A stretch of DNA of 32,164 bases from Verrucomicrobiaceae bacterium (GTDB taxonomy: Bacteria > Verrucomicrobiota > Verrucomicrobiia > Verrucomicrobiales > Verrucomicrobiaceae). Of the stretch, positions 18,249-23,730 are shown piece after piece. How positions within the stretch are numbered: position 1 is the stretch's first letter; each line of letters begins with the position of its first letter. The stretch lies in assembly GCA_947471905.1 (NCBI GenBank), contig CANIZT010000010.1, positions 1 through 32,164 of the forward strand, in the 5' to 3' direction. Both the position numbers and the translations under genes were made by a program. The notes below the pieces were generated by a model, which worked only from the letters and a program-made list of their open reading frames with translations, was not told the DNA's origin and did not search any database.

Positions 18249-19529
18249 ATGAGCCAACCAGCCACTCCTGAAATCACCCGTCTGCGGGATCTTTCGCCGC
18301 AGCAACGCCGTTCCGGACTCGCCGCATGGCTGGGCTGGATGTTTGACGGCCTCGACATGCATCTCTACACGCTGGTGGCCACGGCGTTCGTGGCGCAGCT
18401 CATGCTGGTGCCGGAGAGCGATCCCACCGTGGGCAAGCATGGCTCGATCATTCAGGCGGCCTTCCTCGTCGGCTGGGCGGTGGGTGGAGCTTTTTTTGGG
18501 CGTATCGGCGATGTGCTGGGTCGCAGCCGGGCGCTGACGCTCACGATTCTGACCTATGCCTGTTTCACCGGCCTGTCGTTCTTCGCACAGGAGTGGTGGC
18601 ACCTCATGATTTTCCGTTTCCTAGCCGCGCTCGGCATCGGTGGCGAATGGGCCGTGGGCGCATCCCTGCTTTCTGAAACGTGGCCGAAGAAATGGCGTCC
18701 GTGGATCGCTGCCACGCTGCAAAGCGCCGTGAACTGCGGTGTGCTACTCGCGTGTTTCGCCGGTTGGTTGCTCGCGGGCAAAGAACCACGGTATATCTTC
18801 CTCATCGGCATTCTGCCAGCGTTGATCACCCTGTGGATTCGCAAAGCAGTACCTGAAACGGAAGAATGGGCACAGGCGCGTGAAGGCCAGGAGGTGCCGA
18901 AGATCAGCGCGTTGTTTGGCCCTGCCGTGCGAGGTGTGACGTGGCGTGTGATGCTCATCTGCGCGGTGTCCTTGACCGCGCACTGGACCTTCCTGTTCTG
19001 GCAGCAGAAGCATGTGCTCAGCCTGACAGAGATCGCCTCGCTCGATAAAGCGGGCAAGGATTCCGCCGTCGTCACCGGTTTGATGTGGATCATGTTCGGC
19101 TCGCTCGTTGGCAACTATATCGCTGGCGGCTTTGCGAAGCTCTTTGGCTACCGCAACACCATCGTCGGCATGATGCTGGCCTATTTCGCCTTCATGTATC
19201 TCTCCTTCTCACAGGTGTGGAGTTGGGAGGCCACCAAGTGGCAGTTTGCCGCCATCGGCGCGTGTCAGGGCGTGTTTGGACTCTTCACCATGTGCCTACC
19301 GCCACTGTTCCCCGTGCTGCTGCGCACCACTGGCTCCGGCTTCTGCTACAACATCGGCCGCATCGTCGCTGCGGGCGGCACCGTGTTCTTCGGCATCTTC
19401 GTAAAGGTTGGCGACTTCCGCACCGCCCTGCTCTATGCCGGTTTCCTCTTCATTCCCTCCGCCGCTGTGGCGCTCATGCTGCCCTCCGAGCCGAAAGAAT
19501 CGGATGGCATGGCGAGTGCGGTGGATTGA
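18249..19529 (+). CDS. MFS transporter, sugar/organic acid:H+ symporter-like
   Basis: This is a 12-segment major facilitator of 426 residues. The opening 'LGWMFDGLDMHLYTLV' resembles the aromatic-acid and sialic-acid/shikimate symporter branches (AAHS/SHS, such as NanT or ShiA). The loop 2-3 signature appears as 'GRIGDVLGRSRAL', and 'ALGIGGEWAVGASLLSETWP' in segment 4 is typical of that branch. The solute cannot be told from sequence. It follows the amine oxidase in the same direction and may import a related metabolite. It converges on the cyclase gene with only 16 bases between stops and no evident terminator. Confidence 0.85.
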   Translation: MSQPATPEITRLRDLSPQQRRSGLAAWLGWMFDGLDMHLYTLVATAFVAQLMLVPESDPTVGKHGSIIQAAFLVGWAVGGAFFGRIGDVLGRSRALTLTILTYACFTGLSFFAQEWWHLMIFRFLAALGIGGEWAVGASLLSETWPKKWRPWIAATLQSAVNCGVLLACFAGWLLAGKEPRYIFLIGILPALITLWIRKAVPETEEWAQAREGQEVPKISALFGPAVRGVTWRVMLICAVSLTAHWTFLFWQQKHVLSLTEIASLDKAGKDSAVVTGLMWIMFGSLVGNYIAGGFAKLFGYRNTIVGMMLAYFAFMYLSFSQVWSWEATKWQFAAIGACQGVFGLFTMCLPPLFPVLLRTTGSGFCYNIGRIVAAGGTVFFGIFVKVGDFRTALLYAGFLFIPSAAVALMLPSEPKESDGMASAVD

Positions 19530-19545: not shown

Positions 19546-20427
19546 TCAGCCCGATTTTGCCGCGCCTGGCGCATAGAACTTGTGCCGCGCCGAGAAGCCT
19601 TCCACCTCGCATTCACCCGCGAGATGGACTTCCCGTTCCGCCTTCATCTTTTTCATCGCGGCTTCACTGAAGATGACGTTTTGCTTCAAGCCAGCAGCCA
19701 CCTTTTCGATGCGGAAGACGAAGTTCACCTCGGGGCCATGAAGGTTGAGTTCATTCATCGTCGGCACCGTGCCCAGCGCGGCACCGCCGAAGTGCAGCAC
19801 GAGACGGAACGGCGGATTGGCCTTCAACTGCGCCTCATAAAGCTTTGCCACGGCCTGCCTCACGCGGATGGAGCCGTCGTCGGTGTCATCCCAGTAGCAA
19901 AAGAAGCCGTCGCCGAGGTACTTCGACATGTGACCACCGCATTCGTCGATGATCTGGCGGCAGTTCTTGAACCAAGTGCCCGTCATGCGCGGAAACTGTG
20001 CGCCCGGAAGTGTTTGGGCCATCTGGGTGGAACCAATGATGTCGGCCACCATCAGCCAGCATTGCGCCTGACGGATGTGGATCATGGTCGAGGCCATGAC
20101 TTGCTGCCCGGCCGGATGCATGGAGCTGAGAATTTCCGTGCAGAACTCCAACTCGCTGCTGGCGATGCGGATGATGTCGCCATTGTGCATGCGCACTGAC
20201 TGCGAAATACGGCGGCCATTGACGTAAGTGCCGTTCGCGCTGCCGAGGTCCACCAGCCAGAATTCACGCTCGCCCTGCGCCTGAATGATGGCGTGGCGGC
20301 GTTACACCTCGTGGTCCGCAATCGGCAGAGAGTTATCCGGCGCACGGCCGATGCTGGTCGTTCCGGTCAGATCATGGCGTTCCCCGTCGGGCAGACGCAG
20401 CCAGGACTGGAGAAGGTTGTTGCTCAT
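19546..20427 (-). pseudogene. FHA domain-class III adenylate/guanylate cyclase, interrupted by a stop codon
   Basis: Reading from ATG 20427 gives an FHA domain ('GTTSIGRAPDNSLPIADHEV'), then TAA at 20304-20302 (codon 42), then in the same frame 'RRHAIIQAQGEREFWLVDLG', 'SANGTYVNGRRI' and a complete cyclase domain to 19546. The stop replaces the Ser of the FHA motif H-E-V-S-R-R-H. One base change (TCA to TAA) explains it. The cyclase part keeps its key residues: the metal Asp in 'VADIIGST', 'KYLGDGFF' with Lys and the second Asp, and 'GPEVNFVFR' with the catalytic Asn and Arg. A shortened product could start at GTG 20253, within the FHA domain. It is a fresh pseudogene, a sequencing error or a restart case. 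Confidence 0.8.
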
Positions 20428-20541: not shown

Positions 20542-20826
20542 ATGCCAACGGACTCAACCTCCGCCTTTCATGTGCTTTTCAACCAGGCCGAGGCCGGGCT
20601 GTGGTTTGTCATCGCGTTCGTTCTCATCGTTCGGAGCCGCATGAAAATGCCCTGGCGCTGGCTGCTGCCGCTGGCCTTTGCGGTGTTCGGCATTTCGGAC
20701 CTCATCGAAGCGCAAACTGGGGCGTGGTGGGAGCCGTGGTGGCTGTTCGTTATGAAAGTCGCCTGCGTGCTCGTGTTTGTGCTGGCATGGCGCGCGCATC
20801 GGCGGCAGGGAAAGTCACATGGCTGA
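20542..20826 (+). CDS. Small membrane protein of unknown function
   Basis: This 94-residue protein is not recognised. It has three likely membrane helices: about 18-32 ('AGLWFVIAFVLIV'), about 38-55 ('WRWLLPLAFAVFGISDLI', followed by 'EAQTGAWWEPWW') and about 65-82 ('WLFVMKVACVLVFVLAW'). The tail is basic (R-A-H-R-R-Q-G-K). The start at ATG 20542 is the only reasonable one. Its last 8 bases overlap the start of the Nudix gene (ATGGCTGA, 20819-20826), so the two are probably translated together. Confidence 0.75.
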   Translation: MPTDSTSAFHVLFNQAEAGLWFVIAFVLIVRSRMKMPWRWLLPLAFAVFGISDLIEAQTGAWWEPWWLFVMKVACVLVFVLAWRAHRRQGKSHG

Positions 20827-21317
20827 CTCTCCCTTCAAATTTTGCAGCAACTGTGGCAGCAACGCTTGGATCACACAGGGTGATCGCGAGTTCGTCTGCG
20901 CCGCGTGTGGACACCGGCATTTCATCACGCCCATTCCCGCCGCCGTGGCGCTGATTCTCGATGCACAGGATTGCATCCTTATCATCCGCCGTGCTCATGA
21001 ACCCGGTCTGGGAAAACTCGGCCTACCCGGCGGCGTTATCGAACCTGAAGAAACGGGCGAGATGGGTGCCGCGCGCGAGACGCATGAGGAAGTTGGTCTT
21101 GACCTGCCTGCAAGTGCTTACACCTACTTCTGCTCGCTGAACAACCGCTACGTGTTTCAAGGCTACGAGTGGCCTACGCTTGATCTGTGTTTCGTCGCAC
21201 GCGTGCAGGATTTCACCAATGTGGTGATCCAGCCCTCCGAGGTCATGGAATCATTGATCTGCACAATGGACGAAGTGCCATTCACTGACTTCGCATTTGA
21301 ATCAAACGCTGAGGCGA

Positions 21318-23096
<1,779 letters not shown>

Positions 23097-23221
23097 GGCG
23101 GGCAAGAATGCCGGATTGCAGGCGCGGCGCAAACGGGAAGCCGCAATGCCAAGTGGGGGATTACAAGTTTCTTACATCCGCCTTGCTCAAGGGGAGGGGA
23201 GATGCTAAAAATAGACTCAAT

Positions 23222-23644
23222 GTGGCAAATATCGTTGTTATCGAAGATCACCCGCCTGTCCTCAAATTGATATCAGCGCTCTGTCGTTCGCAGGGGCATG
23301 AGGTCATGGCTTTCGACAATGGCCGAGCTGGAATCAATGCCATTCGTGAAATGAATCCCGATGTCGCACTTGTCGATCGACGTCTCGGCGAGATGGACGG
23401 CCTCGATGTCGTGCGTGAAGCGCGTGATGCTTCACCCACAACTCGCTTTGTCATGGTTTCAGCCTGCTCGGAAACGCGTGACATCGTCACTGCCATCCGC
23501 CGCGGTGCCTGTGATTATGTGACCAAGCCGTTCGAGCCTGAGGAAATCCACACGGCAGTGAACCGTGCTTTGCTGGAGCCCGAGACACCAGTGACACCGA
23601 CACGACAGAAGCTGATCATTCTCTGCCCGAAGCAAGCGGCTTGA
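23222..23644 (+). CDS. Single-domain response regulator (receiver only)
   Basis: This is a receiver domain with no output domain (140 residues). From GTG 23222 it reads M-A-N-I-V-V-I-E-D-H. The acidic pocket is E8-D9, the phosphorylated Asp is D52 ('ALVDRRLGEMDG'), and the switch residues are S80 ('VMVSA') and K102-P ('YVTKPF'). No ATG is available in frame near the start. A purine-rich GGGGAG at 23191-23196 is 26 bases away and fits better with an ATG at 23202 in another frame. No histidine kinase is in the window, so its partner is elsewhere. CheY-like signalling through protein contact is the likely mode. Confidence 0.87.
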   Translation: MANIVVIEDHPPVLKLISALCRSQGHEVMAFDNGRAGINAIREMNPDVALVDRRLGEMDGLDVVREARDASPTTRFVMVSACSETRDIVTAIRRGACDYVTKPFEPEEIHTAVNRALLEPETPVTPTRQKLIILCPKQAA

Positions 23645-23730
23645 ATGGTGCGCGAACTGGTTTGGTCCACCGCGCTGGACTGGCGGAACATTGACCTTTG
23701 AAGTTTTCCACCGTTGACGCATTGATACGC

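Follow-up and report, generated by a model that had tools for sequence, protein, structure and literature searches.

A stop codon at the conserved FHA serine of a class III nucleotide cyclase gene in a Prosthecobacter-like genome

An FHA-class III nucleotide cyclase gene of a Prosthecobacter-like bacterium raises the question of whether an in-frame stop has silenced it, whether part or all of its product is still made, or whether the stop is present in most cells at all. The window analyzed here is the whole 32,164-base contig (C10) of a Prosthecobacter-like MAG (4.49 Mb, 465 contigs, 78% complete). A minus-strand frame of 293 codons runs from ATG 20427 to TGA at 19546 with one internal stop, a TAA at codon 42 located between V41 and R43-R44-H45, past which the reading frame continues without shift for 251 more codons. 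Translation confirmed this course of the frame, which had been described in an earlier sequence-only reading; the uninterrupted frame expected of a working gene product is not found in this copy because of the TAA at codon 42. The gene and its main parts are as follows.

19546..20427, minus strand: FHA-class III nucleotide cyclase gene (translation; Pfam on the read-through protein; uninterrupted, 98% identical orthologue in the nearest relative, G044)
20134..20409, minus strand: FHA domain, approximately residues 7-98, interrupted by the stop (Pfam, residues 24-88; strands 7-98 in the AlphaFold model of an intact orthologue)
20302..20304, minus strand: in-frame TAA, codon 42, in place of the phosphopeptide-binding Ser of the FHA motif S-R-R-H (translation; Ser in 29/29 genus relatives)
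19567..20097, minus strand: class III cyclase domain, approximately residues 111-287, without lesion (Pfam, residues 122-279; model and Foldseek; catalytic residues in the alignment)

Both domains were detected when the read-through protein was scanned with X in place of the stop: Pfam FHA (PF00498) at residues 24-88 with an E-value of 4.5e-21, and Pfam Guanylate_cyc (PF00211) at residues 122-279 with an E-value of 7e-6 (26.2 bits; cut-off 21.9). In an AlphaFold model of the intact orthologue, with a mean pLDDT of 72.9, residues 7-98 hold the FHA strands and the cyclase begins at residue 111; the linker between them, at 101-110, is poorly defined. Of the FHA cleft motifs, G27-R28, H45 and N65-G66-T67 are present and the stop takes the place of the Ser in S-R-R-H, which leaves the full set (G-R, S-x-x-H, N-G-T) incomplete in this copy; the Ser is kept in 29/29 relatives. 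In the cyclase domain the metal Asp129 and Asp173, Lys169, and the transition-state Asn235 and Arg239, all assigned by motif knowledge, are present and invariant in the family alignment. It had been stated that the visible catalytic residues remain, and this holds with one refinement: Asn228 is located at the position of the adenine-specifying Asp/Thr (Cys for GTP). The same Asn is seen in all aligned relatives and therefore, judging from the alignment, characterizes the family as a whole rather than reflecting damage. With Asn in place of the adenine-specifying Asp, this position gives no indication of the family's substrate. Foldseek matched the modeled intact orthologue to OaPAC, Ma1120, and CyaC (PDB 4yus, 4wp9, 1wc0), which share the cyclase fold and most catalytic residues with the window cyclase; however, identity is about 20%, their sensor domains are different or missing, and Asn replaces the adenine-specifying residue in the window cyclase. 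No studied FHA-class III cyclase fusion was identified in literature searches.

A genus-wide search of 48 genomes recovered a close orthologue in only about half of them; the gene therefore seems dispensable. The sequence-only reading had called for a comparison of codon 42 in close relatives. Serine was found at this position in every one of the 29 genus relatives examined, close and distant, encoded by one or another of the four TCN codons, and one base change separates the TAA from the serine codon that the nearest relative carries. The break at the conserved FHA serine and the claim of a one-base change were thus both upheld, and of the genomes examined only this one has the stop. An in-frame stop conserved across the genus was considered and rejected: the TGA of five close relatives is in each case their own terminal stop, a few codons before the query end, and all five carry Ser at the FHA site. 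Orthologues from Prosthecobacter-like Verrucomicrobiaceae MAGs (e.g., CANIBP010000003.1, locus L053) are 98% identical, have the same length, domains, and catalytic residues, and share the divergent small membrane protein gene and the Nudix gene as neighbors, but carry Ser at position 42 where the window gene has a stop. The source MAGs of close orthologues are named Prosthecobacter, Verrucomicrobiaceae, or Verrucomicrobia, and two are labeled Akkermansia muciniphila. The cyclases of these two (loci L054 and L067, on CAMCWM010000065.1 and CAMAZK010000037.1) are 89% and 79% identical; these genomes belong with the Prosthecobacter-like group, and their labels therefore look wrong.

The nearest relative, G044, encodes a 98% identical protein with no indels, and 10.7 kb including the cyclase gene are collinear between the two genomes, without gap, at 93% nucleotide identity. 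With the stop excluded, the genes are separated by 48.5 synonymous and 6.5 replacement differences (dN/dS 0.032); the values for five neighboring genes, 0.044-0.104, are all higher. Codons 1-101 show zero replacements besides the stop. No decay was found elsewhere in the gene in this comparison, and decay beyond the stop was dropped as a reading. A gene silent over a sizeable part of the branch would gather replacements; therefore the stop is either very young or not real, and the most plausible readings are a very recent knock-out and a consensus or strain-level sequence error. Recent loss had been proposed from the sequence alone, and the full purifying selection on the rest of the gene bears this out provided that the stop is real.

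Within the cyclase half, window positions 19825-19881 (codons 183-201) form a 57-base patch that is 70% identical to G044, compared with 96% for the rest of the gene. The patch resembles a short recombination tract; none of the relatives could be identified as its donor. The lower synonymous divergence of the FHA half was considered as a sign of an embedded element and dropped, since it is largely explained by this patch.

It may be that the TAA base is an error or a minor strain variant, because the source is a fragmented MAG. The corresponding account, a consensus error or mis-called strain variant with the gene intact in most cells, is in our view a serious possibility, though clearly short of an even chance. 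It is favored by the state of the assembly (465 contigs, 78% complete), by the intact codon 42 of 29/29 relatives and by complete purifying selection flanking the stop on both sides, as expected of an intact gene; however, the flanking sequence is clean, without indels, and a census of stops speaks against it. In this census 0.82 Mb of the genome (G000) were compared with 1.0 Mb of G044. Three stops were detected in G000 among 106 orthologous genes (46,186 codons): one near an ORF start, one near an ORF end, and the TAA at codon 42, the lone mid-gene stop. The opposite direction (104 genes) gave two stops, one of them mid-gene. A single mid-gene stop in roughly 46,000 codons matches an ordinary background, and with rates this low and this alike in the two directions there is no indication that the assembly is rich in errors or that genes have been lost in an unusual burst. 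Among the 293 codons of the intact orthologue, 73 can become a stop by one base change, 20 of them in codons 1-100; the FHA Ser codon is simply one of these 73, and no special cause is needed for a stop there.

The reading we favor, with slightly better than even confidence, is that a single nucleotide substitution at codon 42 is a very recent null allele of an otherwise intact genus-level orthologue. The substitution would have created the stop in an otherwise intact FHA-class III cyclase gene, and the allele would have arisen very recently in the sampled population. Ribosomes would terminate after 41 residues, and no functional FHA-cyclase would be made from this gene by the cell. The other class III cyclases of the genome, including an FHA-cyclase homologue on contig C4, remain. 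A second intact copy elsewhere was ruled out, as no other copy of the locus was found in the same genome. Six further matches to class III cyclases were detected, the homologue on C4 being a distant one, together with seven matches to the cNMP-binding domain; because of these, cyclic nucleotide signaling as such would not depend on the FHA-cyclase gene.

Could a part of the protein still be made? Internal restart would give a shortened cyclase acting without FHA control, which we consider unlikely. Two possible starts are of particular concern.

20251..20253, minus strand: GTG, codon 59, the restart proposed by the sequence-only reading (in a predicted FHA strand, residues 56-60, AlphaFold model)
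20119..20121, minus strand: ATG, codon 103, the best-placed possible restart, in the predicted linker between FHA and cyclase (alignment; AlphaFold model)

Further possible ATGs are located at the domain boundary, at 20097 (codon 111) and 20085 (codon 115). An uninterrupted cyclase half with the expected catalytic residues and the presence of the three ATGs within the predicted interdomain linker are consistent with restart. However, almost every relative with an intact gene has Met at these codons; hence the ATGs are not an adaptation, and their conservation gives no evidence of restart. A further objection is that restart would leave codons 1-101 partly dead, yet they carry no replacement apart from the stop. 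By eye, no ribosome-binding motif is evident upstream of the linker ATGs, a weak objection as the native start is likewise without one. The shortened cyclase from GTG 20253 found no support: codon 59 lies inside the predicted FHA strand 56-60, and a start there splits the FHA fold and leaves half a beta-sandwich.

It had further been suggested that such a product would be freed from FHA control, but loss of the FHA domain need not mean release. DgcB of Bdellovibrio bacteriovorus is an FHA-GGDEF diguanylate cyclase that is activated when the FHA domain binds the protein's own phosphorylated tail (PMC6733907); by analogy, removal of the FHA domain may silence the enzyme rather than free it. DgcB resembles the window gene in having an N-terminal FHA sensor on a nucleotide cyclase, with the consensus Ser/Arg in the cleft (PMC6733907). 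The catalytic domain, however, is GGDEF in DgcB and class III in the window gene family, and the self ligand of DgcB is held in a 30-residue N-terminal tail, whereas the FHA domain of the window gene begins within about 7 residues of the start. That a point nonsense change in the sensor domain has led to a population with a restarted, FHA-free class III cyclase of altered activity appears to us less likely still than restart itself.

Read-through or recoding of the stop, with full-length protein made, is very improbable. It would fit the constraint on both sides of the stop, but TAA terminates 9 of the 25 genes taken in the window and is therefore a working stop, and no relative has a stop at codon 42. 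Recoding of this TAA is unlikely, to judge from its normal use in the window, and stop reassignment was rejected on the same grounds. Neither restart nor read-through has positive evidence in its favor.

An MFS transporter gene (18249-19529) is convergent with the cyclase gene. On the other side, a small membrane protein gene (20542-20826) and a Nudix hydrolase gene (20819-21361) are divergent from it, and ispG/gcpE (21318-23132) comes next. The small membrane protein and Nudix genes adjoin the cyclase in 16 of 17 relatives. The importance of the locus is mainly that of an annotation note, and the broken copy itself teaches little: mechanical gene calling gives a 235-residue cyclase from GTG 20253 and masks the full FHA-cyclase nature of the family. 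Biochemical work could reasonably be aimed at the intact family, in which an FHA domain is joined to a class III cyclase whose base-specifying position holds Asn. Elsewhere in the collinear 10.7 kb, the most divergent 60-base bin relative to G044 (18 mismatches) is at window positions 23626-23685, flanked by genes for a response regulator and a trypsin/PDZ protease.
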